From: a virus
Reading direction: 5' to 3' (one strand)
Virus record (IMG/VR): IMGVR_UViG_3300023179_000406
Span: 1-28,308 of that record
Length of the DNA: 28,308 bases
The notes below the pieces were generated by a model. That model worked only from the letters and a program-made list of their open reading frames with translations, ran no database searches and was not told the DNA's origin. This document shows, in pieces, positions 4,152 through 14,743 of this stretch. The position numbers and the translations under genes were made by a program. Positions within the stretch are counted from its first letter, which is position 1. Each line of letters begins with the position of its first letter.

Positions 4152-4165
4152 ATAATACAAACTGG

Positions 4166-4385
4166 ACTATGCCAGTATAAATAGATTTTAGGCATAGTGC
4201 GGCGGGATAACTCCCGCGTAATGATGTGGGCAATACCCACCTAGTAGAGTCTAACCAACTAATAACCAGCGTGGTTGCTGGGAAGGGGTCTGCTACTAGT
4301 AATATAACGATGGTAAAGTGGCTCCACCATCAAACCGTATAGCCTCTATGGGACGCCATAGGGGCTTGCGGCGTTACCAGAGGTA
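4166..4385 (+). ncRNA. Multi-hairpin structured RNA upstream of tRNA-Arg/Asp
   Basis: A 250-bp gap without ORF contains six clear stems. These are ACTATGCC 4166-4173 with GGCATAGT 4191-4198; GCGGG 4202-4206 with CCCGC 4213-4217; GTGGG 4226-4230 with CCCAC 4236-4240; CTAGTAG 4241-4247 with CTACTAG 4293-4299, enclosing CCAGC/GCTGG 4266-4281; GATGGT 4309-4314 with ACCATC 4326-4331; CCTCTATGG 4343-4351 with CCATAGGGG 4356-4364. It lies between a small gene and two tRNAs and is probably in the same transcript. No known family recognised. Confidence 0.65.
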
Positions 4386-4402
4386 GCATATAATACAAAT
4401 AT

Positions 4403-4476
4403 GACCCCGTAGCTCAACGGATTAGAGCGAGCGGTTTCTACCCGCTAGGTTGGGGGTTCGAATCCCTCCGGGGTTA
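4403..4476 (+). tRNA. tRNA-Arg (UCU)
   Basis: Cloverleaf with acceptor GACCCCG/CGGGGTT, anticodon stem AGCGG/CCGCT, loop TTTCTAC with anticodon TCT (reads AGA), and T-loop TTCGAAT. The D-loop has the normal GG. No CCA is encoded, so it must be added. Followed 7 nt later by tRNA-Asp. Confidence 0.92.
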
Positions 4477-4483
4477 TTTTGTT

Positions 4484-4557
4484 GGGAGCGTAGATCAATT
4501 GGTTAGATCGTTAGCCTGTCACGCTAAAGGTTGCGGGTTCAAGTCCCGTCGCTCTCG
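4484..4557 (+). tRNA. tRNA-Asp (GUC)
   Basis: Acceptor GGGAGCG/CGCTCTC, anticodon stem TTAGC/GCTAA, loop CTGTCAC with GTC, T-loop TTCAAGT, D-loop with GG, discriminator G. No CCA. Inverted repeat 1 of cassette E begins right after its last base. Confidence 0.92.
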
Positions 4558-4696
4558 CTAAGTTGTTGCAACATAAGGACTTAGGGCAAATCCGCGGGGC
4601 CGACCTTGACGTAACTACTTGAGCCACAAGGGTTTGCGTCAAAAAAATATCTCTTAAAGATTCTCTCTTGACTGTGCCGATACCATAGTGTAGAAT
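4558..4696 (+). promoter_or_regulatory. Composite operator-promoter cassette E
   Basis: Repeat 1 starts TAAGTTGTT at 4559 and repeat 2 TAACTACTT at 4612 (53 bp). The promoter is TTGACT 4668, 17-bp spacer with GCCGATA, TAGAAT 4691-4696. The next gene has a 20-nt leader with AGGAG. Confidence 0.78.
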
Positions 4697-5477: not shown

Positions 5478-6038
5478 ATGAAACATACTAATATAAGTAA
5501 ATATATAAGAGAAAATAAGAATGAATTTAAACAGCATATTTTAAATAGAAAAACAGAAAAAGAATTATCTGAAATATATGGTTGTTCTAATGCAACAATC
5601 ATAGCAATGAAAAAAGAGTTAAAACTACAATCAGGAGATTTATTTAAAGAAAATCAATTTAATCATAAATCCGATATAACACACTGTAAAAGTTGTGGCA
5701 AAAAAAGCAAAAAAAATACTTGTTCTAAGTGCGTACAAAAAAGATCAAATATAGCCAAAAAAGAGCTATTAGTTGAAAAGGCCGGGGGAAAATGCGTAAA
5801 GTGTGGATATAAAGAATGTATAGCAGCATTGGATTTTCATCATATTGATCCTAAAACTAAAGAAATAAATCTTAATACTAATCTAAATATAGATATTAAA
5901 TTTAAAGAAATTGAAAAATGTATTTTGCTATGTTGTCGATGTCACAGAGAACTGCACTGGCAAGAGTCTATTGACTTTGTTCAAGCAAACAGATATGCTA
6001 TAGACAAGACAAAAGAAAGATTGTTTCCTTCTCACTAG
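5478..6038 (+). CDS. HNH homing endonuclease with N-terminal HTH
   Basis: 186 residues. The N-terminus has a helix-turn-helix (EKELSEIYGCSNATIIAMKKEL). A zinc ribbon follows (HCKSCGKKSKKNTCSKCVQ), then an HNH core CVKCGYKECIAALDFHHIDPKT...LLCCRCHRELHW. It is AT-richer than its neighbours, as expected of a mobile gene. It is the only HNH gene on the + strand. Its last residues RLFPSH repeat the end of the preceding gene, suggesting insertion near that gene's 3' end. The next gene's Shine-Dalgarno site (AGGAGA) overlaps its stop. Confidence 0.9.
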   Translation: MKHTNISKYIRENKNEFKQHILNRKTEKELSEIYGCSNATIIAMKKELKLQSGDLFKENQFNHKSDITHCKSCGKKSKKNTCSKCVQKRSNIAKKELLVEKAGGKCVKCGYKECIAALDFHHIDPKTKEINLNTNLNIDIKFKEIEKCILLCCRCHRELHWQESIDFVQANRYAIDKTKERLFPSH

Positions 6039-6647: not shown

Positions 6648-6876
6648 ATATTATATACAATCTGGCACTCTACAACTCATATACTCAACGGATCAAAAAC
6701 CACTAGATGCAGCAGTAGCAGCGTTATGGGAAACTAATAAATTTGATACTTTAGATGAACACTTTTATGTTGATGAGCGAGGATTCAAAAACTATGCTAC
6801 AGCATTACCAGATACCAAGGTATACAAAACTGCCAAGGTTGTAAGACGAGCGGGCTGGAGTATGGAAGAAGACTAA
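6640..6876 (+). CDS. Conserved small phage protein (GTG start)
   Basis: 78 residues, (M)PKYYIQSGTLQLIYSTDQKP. GTG at 6640 has GGAGGAGAG just upstream. An ATG at 6517 in the same frame would lie deep inside the previous gene. The YYIQSGTL opening and HFYVDERGF motif look like a conserved phage family; the role is unknown. Translation is probably coupled to the previous gene. Confidence 0.75.
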   Translation: MPKYYIQSGTLQLIYSTDQKPLDAAVAALWETNKFDTLDEHFYVDERGFKNYATALPDTKVYKTAKVVRRAGWSMEED

Positions 6877-6884
6877 AACTCTCC

Positions 6885-7011
6885 CTAAGTCCTTTGTGGG
6901 TAACCACTTAGGACAAACGGGGCGGCGAAAATTTGACGTAAGTGCTTATGGTTCAACCACTTAGGAAAAACTAAAGAATGGGTTGACAAGTGACGATAAG
7001 TATGGTATGCT
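6885..7011 (+). promoter_or_regulatory. Composite operator-promoter cassette F
   Basis: The cleanest copy. Repeat 1 starts TAAGTCCTT at 6886. Repeat 2 is TAAGTGCTT 6939-6947 with AACCACTTA 6955-6963, 53 bp later. The promoter is TTGACA 6983, 17-bp spacer with GACGATAA, TATGCT 7006-7011. The gap from repeat 2 to -35 is 44 bp, about one turn shorter than the common 54-56. Confidence 0.82.
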
Positions 7012-7434: not shown

Positions 7435-7507
7435 GCCGGTATAACTCAGTTAGCAGAGTGTCAAATTTGTAATTTGAATGTCGTGGGTGCAAATCCTACT
7501 ACCGGCT
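7435..7507 (+). tRNA. tRNA-Thr (UGU) with altered elbow
   Basis: Acceptor GCCGGTA/TACCGGC, D-stem ACTC/GAGT, anticodon stem TCAAA/TTTGA with loop TTTGTAA (anticodon TGT). The T-loop is TGCAAAT instead of TTCAAAT, so position 55 is G. The D-loop is AGTTAGCA, so position 18 is A where nearly all tRNAs have G. The two changes face each other in the tRNA elbow. Confidence 0.9.
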
Positions 7508-7518
7508 TTGTAATATGA

Positions 7519-7589
7519 TCCGGGATGGTGTAAAAGTAGCACGGAATACTTTGGATATTCCTGTCGAGGTGCAAATCCTTGTCCCGGAG
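7519..7589 (+). tRNA. tRNA-Pro (UGG) with altered elbow
   Basis: Acceptor TCCGGGA/TCCCGGA, D-stem GTGT/GCAC, anticodon stem GAATA/TATTC with loop CTTTGGA (TGG). The D-loop AAAAGTA has A at 18, and the T-loop TGCAAAT has G at 55, the same exchange as in tRNA-Thr. No CCA. Confidence 0.88.
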
Positions 7590-7594
7590 TTTGA

Positions 7595-7676
7595 TGCTCG
7601 GTGGCGAAATTGATAAACGCAGTTGACTGTTAATCAACCGTCGAAAGACTTGCTGGTTTGAGTCCAGCCCGAGCAG
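7595..7676 (+). tRNA. Class II tRNA with Asn anticodon (GUU)
   Basis: Acceptor TGCTCGG/CCGAGCA with discriminator G; anticodon stem GTTGA/TCAAC with loop CTGTTAA, anticodon GTT at 7629-7631. The D-arm (GGCGAAATTGATAAACGC) matches tRNA-Leu. A 13-nt variable region with GTC-GAAA-GAC is a long class II arm, whereas tRNA-Asn is normally class I. The Asn anticodon loop, U1-A72 and G73 are as in E. coli tRNA-Asn. It therefore looks like a Leu-type body recoded for Asn. D-loop G18-A19 and T-loop TTTGAGT (U56) replace the usual G19-C56 with A-U. Confidence 0.85.
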
Positions 7677-7685
7677 TTATATTTT

Positions 7686-7772
7686 AGAGGTCAGGCAGAT
7701 ACTGTTTTGCTGCACCGCTTTGCTAAAGCGGACCGGTGAAAACCGGTCAGGGTTAGATTCCCTGGGCCTCTG
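7686..7772 (+). tRNA. tRNA-Ser (GCU)
   Basis: Acceptor AGAGGTC/GGCCTCT, discriminator G, anticodon stem CCGCT/AGCGG with loop TTGCTAA (GCT), and a long variable arm ACCGGTGAAAACCGGT. The T-loop is TTAGATT with A at 56. The D-loop has G-T where GG is expected, so a U19-A56 pair could replace G19-C56. D-loop numbering is less certain here than in the others. Confidence 0.9.
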
Positions 7773-7774
7773 TT

Positions 7775-7845
7775 ATTGGCGTAGTTCAATAGTAGAATAA
7801 CGGTCTCCAAAACCGTAGATGGTGGTGCAATTCCACCCGCCTTTG
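7775..7845 (+). tRNA. tRNA-Trp (CCA) with altered elbow and weak acceptor end
   Basis: Anticodon stem ACGGT/ACCGT with loop CTCCAAA (CCA), T-stem GGTGG/CCACC. The T-loop TGCAATT has G at 55, and the D-loop AATAGTA has A at 18. The acceptor ATTGGCG against CGCCTTT leaves two T-T mismatches at 2-71 and 3-70, so the end of the stem is weak. Cassette G begins 13 bp later. Confidence 0.82.
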
Positions 7846-7857
7846 CTTTCTGTTTGC

Positions 7858-7986
7858 GTAAGTTATTGAAAATAAAAGACTTAGAACAAATTTGACGGCG
7901 AATTTTTGACGTAAGTACTTGACTCATAACGACTTAGGATTTTTCTAAAGATTCTGCTTGACACCAGCCGATAAAGAATGTAGAAT
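7858..7986 (+). promoter_or_regulatory. Composite operator-promoter cassette G
   Basis: Repeat 1 starts TAAGTTATT at 7859 and repeat 2 TAAGTACTT at 7912 (53 bp). The promoter is TTGACA 7958, 17-bp spacer with GCCGATAA, TAGAAT 7981-7986. Transcription should start about 3 nt before tRNA-Ile, so this tRNA hardly needs 5' trimming. Confidence 0.78.
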
Positions 7987-7995
7987 ACAACACAC

Positions 7996-8069
7996 GGGGC
8001 GTTGCAGCCGGTAGTTGCAATCACTCTTATAAGGTGACCAAAAGGTAGGTTCGACTCCTACACGCCCTA
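7996..8069 (+). tRNA. tRNA-Ile (UAU)
   Basis: Acceptor GGGGCGT/ACGCCCT, anticodon stem TCACT/GGTGA, loop CTTATAA with anticodon TAT, reading ATA. T-loop TTCGACT and D-loop with GG are normal. Most bacteria read ATA with a lysidine-modified CAU tRNA; a UAU tRNA avoids that modification and suits an AT-rich genome. Confidence 0.85.
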
Positions 8070-8088
8070 CTCGGAGGCTGACGTTCCC

Positions 8089-8127
8089 GGCGGTTTAGCG
8101 TGGTTCCGCCCCAACAAAAACTACGCT
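8089..8127 (+). other. Possible H-type pseudoknot between tRNA-Ile and tRNA-Glu
   Basis: GGCGG 8089-8093 can pair with CCGCC 8106-8110, while AGCGTGGTT 8097-8105 pairs with AACTACGCT 8119-8127. The two stems cross, giving a pseudoknot with loops of 3, 0 and 8 nt. The same AGCGTGGTT arm recurs in the RNAs at 4268 and 24952. It may help processing between the two tRNAs, or act as an RNA of its own. Confidence 0.4.
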
Positions 8128-8131
8128 TCAC

Positions 8132-8203
8132 GGTCCCATCTTCTAATGGTCAGGAAAGCAGACTTTCAATCTGTTAATATGAGTTCGATTCTCATTGGGA
8201 TCA
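8132..8203 (+). tRNA. tRNA-Glu (UUC)
   Basis: Acceptor GGTCCCA/TGGGATC, anticodon stem GCAGA/TCTGT with loop CTTTCAA (TTC), T-loop TTCGATT, D-loop TAATGGTCAGG with GG. Normal elbow residues. No CCA. Confidence 0.9.
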
Positions 8204-8217
8204 TTCAAGTTTCTCTC

Positions 8218-8245
8218 TTGACAAGCCGATAAGATATGGTAGACT
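8218..8245 (+). promoter_or_regulatory. GCCGATA-type promoter for gene 8266
   Basis: TTGACA 8218-8223, 16-bp spacer with GCCGATAA, TAGACT 8240-8245. No inverted-repeat pair lies upstream; tRNA-Glu is directly before it. Confidence 0.72.
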
Positions 8246-8265
8246 ACTCCAAAGAAAGGGAAGAT

Positions 8266-8454
8266 ATGAAAACCATTCGTTTCTACGATATGATGGTCGA
8301 TTGCATTGAGAATGGAATTGAGACTAGCAAGCAACTGGCCCATGAGTTTAGACTTGATCTACCAGTGGATTTTGATCTGGATAATGCTTTTGATATGCTG
8401 AACGAAAAGACTGGCTATGATGTTTATTCCTTTAGGTATGAGGAAATAGTCTGA
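8266..8454 (+). CDS. Small unknown protein
   Basis: 62 residues, MKTIRFYDMMVDCIENGIET. Helical and acidic, with VDFDLDNAFDMLNEKTGYDVYSF. It has a purine-rich ribosome site (AAAGAAAGGGAAG) and a promoter at 8218. The in-frame start at 8236 overlaps the -10 box and is rejected. No family recognised. Confidence 0.7.
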   Translation: MKTIRFYDMMVDCIENGIETSKQLAHEFRLDLPVDFDLDNAFDMLNEKTGYDVYSFRYEEIV

Positions 8455-8461
8455 GATAATT

Positions 8462-8533
8462 GGGGGTCAAGCTTTAATAGTGAAGCATCAGACTTTTAAT
8501 CTGAGGAAGAAGGAGCATTACCTTCGGCCCCTA
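8462..8533 (+). tRNA. tRNA-Lys (UUU) with altered elbow and reversed 54-58 pair
   Basis: Acceptor GGGGGTC/GGCCCCT, D-stem GCTT/AAGC, anticodon stem TCAGA/TCTGA with loop CTTTTAA (TTT), T-stem GAAGG/CCTTC. The T-loop AGCATTA has G at 55 and A54/T58 in place of T54/A58. The D-loop TAATAGTG has A at 18. Position 8 is A rather than T. The 3' half overlaps, on the other strand, the end of the HNH gene. Confidence 0.8.
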
Positions 8534-9107
8534 CTTTGTATTTAGTCCAATAACCTCTAGGAGGTTTGGAGAGATTATATTTTTTTGTCCATTTTTCAAC
8601 AGCCTTATCGGATACTCCATACTGTTTGGCTATTTGAGTAGTTGGTTTTTCCCATAAAAGTTTTTCTAGATAATCTTTTGTAGGCCATTCTACTTTTTTA
8701 TTGCGAGGTTTTTTTGCCTGAATTTTCTTTTGTTTTCTGTACTTACGATCATGCTCCCAATGACAATTAGGACATAATATAAGTATATTATTTTGATCAT
8801 TAATAATAGAAACTAAAGTATCTTCCGGAAAAGAATGTATTGGTTTTATATGGCATACTTCAACATGTTTATCATATCCACAATATTGACATACTTTGAT
8901 GTGTTTATATTGATTTCTGGCTCTACCTCTAATGATATTAAATCTAGCACTTTGTCCATGAACGATGCTGTGAGTAGTATCTTTGAGAGTATGAAATTTA
9001 ATTCTATTATTAGAAGAACATTTATTGCAGTATTTTGATTTGATAGTTTTATATTGACCACAATCGCAAAAATTATATTGTTTAGGATATTTATTAGGTG
9101 GCAGCAT
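8496..9107 (-). CDS. HNH homing endonuclease abutting tRNA-Lys
   Basis: 203 residues. An N-terminal zinc ribbon (CDCGQYKTIKSKYCNKC) is followed by an HNH core CQYCGYDKHVEVCHIKPIHSF...NNILILCPNCHWEHD and a C-terminal helix-turn-helix (TTQIAKQYGVSDKAVEKWTKK). The last ~12 residues (AEGNAPSSSD) are encoded antisense to tRNA-Lys, so the gene sits at the tRNA 3' end and may recognise the tRNA gene as its target. A weak promoter (TTGATC, 16 bp, TATATT) is visible upstream on its strand. Confidence 0.88.
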   Translation of the reverse strand: MLPPNKYPKQYNFCDCGQYKTIKSKYCNKCSSNNRIKFHTLKDTTHSIVHGQSARFNIIRGRARNQYKHIKVCQYCGYDKHVEVCHIKPIHSFPEDTLVSIINDQNNILILCPNCHWEHDRKYRKQKKIQAKKPRNKKVEWPTKDYLEKLLWEKPTTQIAKQYGVSDKAVEKWTKKYNLSKPPRGYWTKYKVGAEGNAPSSSD

Positions 9108-10246: not shown

Positions 10247-11215
10247 ATGGCTCATGCTATCGAAAATGTAAATGGTCAGGATTGTATGTTTTATGTTGGC
10301 GAAACCCCTTGGCACGGTCTGGGGCAAAAGTTGGAGGACAACCCATCTATTAGCGAGGCTATTTCCGCTGCTGGTCTGGATTGGGAAGTTGGTTTGAAGG
10401 ATTTGTTTACCAGTGAGGGAACGCCTGTTCCTGCTCGTGCCACCTATCGTAAGACCGACAATAGCATCCTCGGGGTTGTGGGGCCGCGTTATACGCCGCT
10501 CCAAAATCAAGATGCTTTCGATTGGTTCCAGCCTTTTCTCGATGCTAATGAGTGTGGATTGCATACTGCCGGATCACTTCATAATGGGCAAAAAGTATGG
10601 GTGCTTGCAAAATTGAATAGAGACAATTGTGAAATTGTTCCGGGTGATACTGTGCAAAAGTTTATTTTGCTAAGTAATAGCCATGATGGTACTACTGCTA
10701 TTAGGGTGGGTTATAGTCCTATAAGGACGGTTTGTGCTAATACTTTGGCTCTCGCCCATAGTAAAAATAGTGGTAGTAAACTGATTCGTATTCGTCATAC
10801 TCGTTCTAGTAAGACCAATTTGGAGCAGGTTCGTGATATAATGGATAATATTAATGCAGAATTCGAGGCTACTGCGGAACAGTATCGATTCCTGGCATCA
10901 AAAAACTTTAATCAGGCCGATGTTCGTCGGTATGTTAAAGTAATGCTAGGTATCGAAGGTACGATTGATGATGATATTAAGACTCGTACCCGTAATATTA
11001 TGGATGAAATTCTGGCTCTTATCGAAGGGCCTAAGCAAAGTGCTACTGGAGTAAGAGGGACTTGGTGGGCAGCAATGAATGGATATAATGAATATCTAAA
11101 TTATCATAAAGGTCGCACCGCTGATAATCGTATCGATTCACTCTGGTTCGGCCAAAATGCTAATGATAATATTAAAGCATTAGATAAGGCTTTAGAGTTT
11201 GCGAACGCCGTCTGA
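10247..11215 (+). CDS. DUF932 phage/plasmid-like protein
   Basis: 322 residues, near the usual length of the DUF932 (phage/plasmid-like, TIGR03299) family. Hallmarks are TPWHGLGQKL near the N-terminus, then YRKTDNSILGVVGPRYTPLQNQDAF, VWVLAKLNR, and the later RTVCANTLALA. Family members are common on plasmids and phages and have no settled function. It has AAAGGG before the ATG, its own cassette promoter, and a terminator right after the stop, so it is a single-gene unit. Confidence 0.9.
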   Translation: MAHAIENVNGQDCMFYVGETPWHGLGQKLEDNPSISEAISAAGLDWEVGLKDLFTSEGTPVPARATYRKTDNSILGVVGPRYTPLQNQDAFDWFQPFLDANECGLHTAGSLHNGQKVWVLAKLNRDNCEIVPGDTVQKFILLSNSHDGTTAIRVGYSPIRTVCANTLALAHSKNSGSKLIRIRHTRSSKTNLEQVRDIMDNINAEFEATAEQYRFLASKNFNQADVRRYVKVMLGIEGTIDDDIKTRTRNIMDEILALIEGPKQSATGVRGTWWAAMNGYNEYLNYHKGRTADNRIDSLWFGQNANDNIKALDKALEFANAV

Positions 11216-14658: not shown

Positions 14659-14668
14659 GTATAATCAA

Positions 14669-14741
14669 GCAAGAGTAACTCAGTTGGTAGAGTATTTGAT
14701 TTCCAATCAAAATGTCGTGGGTTCGAATCCCATCTCTTGCT
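14669..14741 (+). tRNA. tRNA-Gly (UCC)
   Basis: Acceptor GCAAGAG/CTCTTGC, anticodon stem TTTGA/TCAAA with loop TTTCCAA (TCC), T-loop TTCGAAT, D-loop AGTTGGTA. Normal elbow residues. No CCA. It stands alone, with repeat copy 5 beginning 3 nt later. Confidence 0.92.
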
Positions 14742-14743
14742 TT

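Follow-up and report, generated by a model that had tools for sequence, protein, structure and literature searches.

tRNA genes of the window and their elbow residues

The window, that is the whole stretch of DNA analysed here, is the entire 28,308-base IMG/VR record of an uncultured large phage, to which no near match was found among isolated phages. It carries eleven tRNA genes (Table 1), ten of which were detected by ARAGORN and nine by the Rfam tRNA model (RF00005); Lys was found by the Rfam model and missed by ARAGORN, Ser and Ile are missing from the Rfam list and were found by ARAGORN. Residues were numbered by Rfam alignment together with standard tRNA numbering of the sequence. Six of the tRNAs depart from the residues G18 G19 / U55 C56 that are invariant in the elbow of RF00005. 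These paired exchanges, including an additional 54/58 swap in Lys, had been described in a sequence-only reading of this DNA and were confirmed by the alignment, as was the canonical GG and TTC of Arg, Asp, Ile, Glu and Gly. A gene assigned to tRNA-Pro in that reading is in fact a tRNA-Gln, since the stem GAAUA/UAUUC leaves the loop CUUUGGA with the anticodon UUG, and the gene has U1-A72 and G73.

Table 1. Features of the window, with elbow residues of the tRNAs (window position in brackets)
Feature	Position	Strand	Residues or description	Detected by
Pistol self-cleaving ribozyme	4161-4223	+	RF02679, 53.7 bits (cut-off 34.5)	
tRNA-Arg(UCU)	4402-4477	+	canonical GG/TTC, internal control	ARAGORN/Rfam
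tRNA-Asp(GUC)	4484-4558	+	canonical GG/TTC, internal control	ARAGORN/Rfam
HNH endonuclease ORF	5478-6038	+		
First of two alike stretches	~6870-6975		'gacgtaagt', 'acttagga'	
tRNA-Thr(UGU)	7435-7507	+	A18 (7452), G55 (7489), U54-A58 kept	ARAGORN/Rfam
tRNA-Gln(UUG)	7519-7589	+	A18 (7535), G55 (7571)	ARAGORN/Rfam
tRNA-Asn(GUU)	7595-7676	+	A19 (7613), U56 (7659)	ARAGORN/Rfam
tRNA-Ser(GCU)	7685-7773	+	U19 (7705), A56 (7755)	ARAGORN
tRNA-Trp(CCA)	7775-7846	+	A18 (7791), G55 (7827)	ARAGORN/Rfam
Second of two alike stretches	~7860-7945		'gacgtaagt', 'acttagga'	
tRNA-Ile(UAU)	7996-8070	+	canonical GG/TTC, internal control	ARAGORN
tRNA-Glu(UUC)	8132-8203	+	canonical in window	ARAGORN/Rfam
tRNA-Lys(UUU)	8463-8532	+	A18 (8479), G55 (8515), A54/U58, A8/U14/G21	Rfam
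HNH endonuclease ORF	8496-9107	-		
DUF932-like protein	10247-11215			
tRNA-Gly(UCC)	14668-14742	+	canonical GG/TTC, internal control	ARAGORN/Rfam

Thr, Gln, Asn, Trp and Lys match RF00005 with more than 29 bits, above the curated score, and with a complete cloverleaf. The weakest match is Lys (30.8 bits), whose acceptor stem is apparently 6 bp long. The acceptor stem of Trp has two U-U mismatches (2-71 and 3-70), which are also present in its canonical sibling in the related locus L036 and in L030. Single genes of the window could be impaired, namely Lys with its short acceptor stem and Trp with its two mismatches. Asn tRNAs normally belong to class I; the tRNA-Asn(GUU) of the window and of the relatives L035 and L048 has a long, class-II-like variable arm and retains U1-A72, G73 and the GUU anticodon.

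The Pistol ribozyme lies about 180 bases upstream of the Arg/Asp pair. HNH endonuclease ORFs adjoin the tRNA clusters, and the second of them overlaps, in antisense, the 3' half of tRNA-Lys. The two alike stretches, each ahead of a tRNA block, are possibly related promoter or processing regions.

Coupled exchanges in related phages and in IMG/VR

Relatives of the window were gathered via its DUF932-like protein and are viral contigs that reach 244 kb in length. A search of ten large relatives for the T4-like capsid PF07068 gave no match, and is uninformative since no control matched. ARAGORN was run on the window, on 50 loci related to it and on 50 kb of a distant phage, and yielded 466 tRNAs, of which 249 are unique. 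Positions 18 and 19 were placed from the D-loop alone, ignoring the T-loop. The sequences compared share ancestry, so that the following counts do not represent independent events; cluster-collapsed and isoacceptor-level counts lessen this dependence in part.

Placement blind to the T-loop still gave coupled pairs. Among the 249 unique clade tRNAs, positions 18-55 read G-U in 220 and A-G in 20 (21 with a mis-parsed Met), and neither A-U nor a true G-G was found. The other nine calls comprise one G-C, one G-G and seven U-U; the G-G call is the mis-parsed Met, whose D-loop reads A18 G19, and in the seven U-U calls position 18 was misplaced by the simple rule in long or odd D-loops, mostly of Asn, Ser and Gln types. 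Sorted by T-loop class, all 21 G55 tRNAs have A18, and A18 occurs in none of the tRNAs with a canonical T-loop. D-loops of 7 nt, in which the placement is unambiguous, gave 338 G/U, 3 A/G, 7 G/C and 1 U/U, with no A/U and no G/G. The pairing of A18 with G55 in the clade is not due to chance, since 18-55 is either G-U or A-G without mixtures.

The switches recur in place within orthologous tRNA genes. In the closest pair, the Gln of the window differs from that of L046 only at positions 16, 18 and 55 and at the 3' end, and the Gln genes of L040 and L036 form a further sibling pair that differs almost only at coupled sites or in the T-arm. Outside the loops, Trp of the window is 91% identical to its canonical sibling in L036, and Ser is 90% identical to a sibling in L035 with canonical G19/C56. 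Across the clade, exchanges at 18-55 affect Thr, Gln, Trp, Glu, two kinds of Arg, Met and Lys, those at 19-56 Asn, Gln, Lys and Ser, and those at 54-58 Thr, Gln, Glu and Lys. Thr has A18/G55 in six unique sequences and a canonical T-loop in 15; the A19/U56 form of Asn is shared with L035 and L048, the Asn tRNAs of other relatives being canonical. Glu, canonical in the window, carries A18/G55 together with A54/U58 in five relatives (L016, L018, L039, L041 and L048). A Lys type in which A8/U14/G21 replace U8/A14/A21, combined with A54/U58, recurs in L373, L380, L605 and L779, and within this type 18-55 is G-U in some members and A-G in others, which constitutes a two-sided switch.

The whole IMG/VR database was scanned with one fixed sequence frame for 18-55 combinations. 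The A18/G55 pattern was found in at least 119 stretches, with a G55 tRNA at no fewer than 111 loci, the A18/U55 pattern in 31 stretches (19 real tRNAs) and the G18/G55 pattern in 18 stretches (three real tRNAs with a GG D-loop); such one-sided forms are scarce. The G55 tRNAs of the A18/G55 scan fall into at least 84 clusters at 80% identity and represent at least 39 anticodons. An elbow-agnostic scan returned 129 tRNAs, in which 18/55 was G/U 125 times, A/G twice, and C/U and G/C once each. For the neighbouring contact, at least 93 unique tRNAs with A19/U56 were found, and 27 unique ones with G19/U56 in the entire IMG/VR; the A19/C56 pattern mostly caught canonical GG tRNAs with A at position 20, so that ARAGORN-checked tRNAs alone were counted, two real ones among the matches listed. 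Collapsed at 80% identity, positions 54-58 were U-A in 829 cases, A-U in 29, A-A in 13, G-G in five and U-U in none. The coupling of 8-14 is weaker, since besides A8-U14 (11) and G8-C14 (6) the combinations U8-U14 (21) and A8-A14 (12) occur too. Unpartnered T-loop changes such as C54/A58 and G18/C55 were also seen, and thus the elbow coupling is strong and not absolute. Regions matching the window tRNA-Thr by blastn in four isolated phages (Bacillus phage G, Erwinia phage Kaldavass, Citrobacter phage Ci1 and Sinorhizobium phage Phosso) contain canonical T-loops.

Swapped elbows in cellular genomes

The A18/G55 pattern is not confined to phages. Among the matches listed, its carriers in GTDB include tRNA-Phe of Pelagibacteraceae, tRNA-Gly(UCC) of Streptomyces, tRNA-Phe, -Thr and -Tyr of Patescibacteria, tRNA-Ala of Micrarchaeota and tRNA-Phe of Chloroflexi, although some contigs of carrier MAGs may be phage. 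These carriers rule out a phage-only feature, and the enrichment in phages is only modest: in 119 genomes of Pseudomonadota other than SAR11, A18/G55 was found in none and the canonical combination in 907 tRNAs, a lower frequency than in the viral sample (2 versus 125; p 0.015). In Streptomyces and relatives (L236, L304, L242 and others) the chromosomal tRNA-Gly(UCC) has A18/G55, and ARAGORN reads its T-loop as 6 nt long.

In 58 genomes of the Pelagibacteraceae (SAR11), tRNA-Phe has A18/G55 in 20 and the canonical residues in 20 others, and no genome has both. The SAR11 genome G041, in which 30 of 34 tRNA matches were read, has one tRNA-Phe, and this has A18/G55; a second, divergent tRNA-Phe among the four remaining matches is unlikely. 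Its tRNA-Val combines A18/G55 with A54/U58. That the sole tRNA-Phe found in a SAR11 genome is of the A18/G55 form provides strong evidence that such tRNAs take part in translation. The earlier proposal that the changes match position by position, and look selected and not decayed, is supported in so far as the changes are matched and constrained, and the coupling holds in the relatives, in IMG/VR and in cellular genomes.

A probable alternative elbow lock and competing explanations

The strict coupling, and a cellular genome in which the single tRNA-Phe found is of the A18-G55 form, very probably reflect compensatory evolution that preserves structure, leading to an alternative elbow lock in otherwise ordinary elongator tRNAs. 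In the canonical elbow, the purine at 18 intercalates into the T-loop, which is closed by 54-58, and contacts residue 55, and residue 19 forms a pair with 56 (PMC4810234, PMC7912444). According to the proposed mechanism these contacts would be replaced with both partners changed, G18-U55 by A18-G55, G19-C56 by A19-U56 or U19-A56, U54-A58 by A54-U58 (or G54-G58) and occasionally U8-A14 by A8-U14, so that D- and T-loops should stay docked. The route was likely stepwise, through tolerated one-sided intermediates, and the order of the steps might be deduced from the fact that A18/U55 is commoner than G18/G55, and the G19/U56 wobble commoner than A19/C56. The swapped partners presumably touch each other in the folded molecule, and the phage tRNAs are probably expressed and charged.

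Compared with the canonical elbow (G18-Psi55, G19-C56, U54-A58), the window tRNAs have the same cloverleaf, loop lengths and docking positions and score above the Rfam gathering threshold, whereas the paired residues are exchanged and the modification targets U55, U54 and A58 are lost where changed. The swapped tRNAs therefore cannot carry Psi55 (nor m5U54 and m1A58, where these bases are changed), and the usual modification cannot be made there by TruB, TrmA/TrmFO or TrmI.

The same coupling has reportedly been obtained in the laboratory. Doyon, Steinberg and colleagues are said to have described, in J Mol Biol in 2004, a 'specific purine trap' in suppressor tRNAs selected in E. coli, in which U55 goes with G18 and G55 with A18. 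This rule is followed by the A-G pairs of Thr, Gln, Trp and Lys in the window and by the clade without mixtures. In the trap, purine 18 is reportedly stacked between 54-58 and residue 57 of the folded RNA, with U54-A58 and a purine at 57; Thr (UGCAAAU), Gln (UGCAAAU) and Trp (UGCAAUU) have these T-loop residues, and Lys has A54/U58 with A57. The trap came from a randomised library, whereas the natural pairs recur in phages, bacteria and archaea and are also joined with A54/U58. Steinberg's group, selecting for suppressor tRNAs that are active, reportedly found that G54-G58 can substitute for U54-A58, and Zagryadskaya and colleagues (NAR, 2003) are said to have selected T-loops with G54-A58 or G54-G58. 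G54-G58 is natural in the Gln of L030, L041, L043 and L044; A54-U58, the commonest natural 54-58 swap here, is not known to be among the latter forms. Functional tRNA-Pyl likewise lacks the canonical G18-Psi55 and G19-C56, but has a rebuilt core and a small D-loop, whereas the window tRNAs keep an ordinary core (PMC6337575).

If a host lineage lost TruB, U55 might no longer be of benefit and host and phage tRNAs might drift to A18/G55, an explanation that we regard as unlikely. TruB_N was found in none of the 20 Pelagibacteraceae with A18/G55 tRNA-Phe and in nine of the 20 with the canonical one (p 0.0012, relatedness ignored), and it was not found in the contigs of ten relatives (180-244 kb). 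As a lead only, the SAR11 pattern fits a relaxation at U55 once one lineage had lost TruB, an association that may rest on a single event. However, a canonical tRNA-Phe persists in many SAR11 genomes that gave no TruB match, and TruB is present in 14 of 24 other genomes carrying A18/G55, including Streptomyces, Chloroflexi and Omnitrophota, which rules out TruB loss as a general requirement. Overall, ten of the 58 genomes of this family (the GTDB family of genome G001) have TruB, none of them with an A18/G55 tRNA-Phe. It is also improbable that the exchanges (A18-G55, A19-U56, A54-U58, A8-U14) form an interchangeable natural elbow code without Psi55 and m5U54, used by phages as a Psi55-independent or enzyme-blind set and tied to host elbow enzymes such as TruB.

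Another proposal is that elbow bases were changed for escape from a host defence nuclease or from an elbow-reading enzyme (TruB, TrmA, TrmH), the paired swap preserving function. Atypical T-loops are indeed commoner in the clade (36 of 248 unique tRNAs) than in the elbow-agnostic IMG/VR sample (36 of 588; Fisher p 0.0002, relatedness ignored), a real increase that is probably driven by relaxed constraint and not by a specific benefit. Besides the rarity of A18/G55 in the 119 Pseudomonadota genomes, escape is favoured by contacts of AriB with D-loop bases, seen in a predicted model that mutants support (PMC12409363), and of Cas12a3 with the T-arm backbone (PMC12851939). Nevertheless, SAR11, Streptomyces, Patescibacteria and Micrarchaeota have the identical swap fixed in tRNAs of their chromosomes, half of the window tRNAs are canonical, and hypervariability of the T-arm is generic: positive selection specific to the clade was rejected, as the ratio of T-stem to remaining divergence is 3.5 in the clade, 4.3 in other IMG/VR loci and 3.6 in GTDB loci. 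Known phage escape sits in the anticodon loop (PMC10264068); in both cases phage tRNAs diverge at otherwise conserved positions, but the swaps lie elsewhere in the molecule, are matched pairs and occur in cellular genomes too. The sequence-only suggestion that the tRNAs hide from nucleases or elbow-binding enzymes thus finds no support, since chromosomal tRNAs that play no part in phages have the same A18/G55 swap as a fixed state and nothing connects the swap with a nuclease; escape is quite improbable and is not needed to explain the swaps. That the genes are pseudogenes shedding conserved bases at random is, despite the low score and apparently shortened stem of Lys and the mismatches of Trp, hardly credible in view of two-sided matched changes, paired stems, intact anticodon loops and variants conserved in relatives.

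In the open-access literature searched, nothing relevant was found on the 'purine trap', A18/G55 or 18-55 covariation, nor any description of a natural A18-G55, which cannot show that it is unreported; the natural, recurrent and cross-domain occurrence of alternative elbow pairs is apparently undescribed there. G18-Psi55 and G19-C56 are regarded as near-universal. The compensated exchanges tie an alternative elbow selected in the laboratory to nature, and suggest that tRNA finders and the annotation of TruB/TrmA should allow for swapped forms. Natural double-mutant pairs, such as the Gln of the window and of L046, are usable for probing the roles of Psi55 and of elbow recognition. This natural, repeated and strictly coupled replacement spans phages, bacteria and archaea, including SAR11, an abundant lineage of the ocean.
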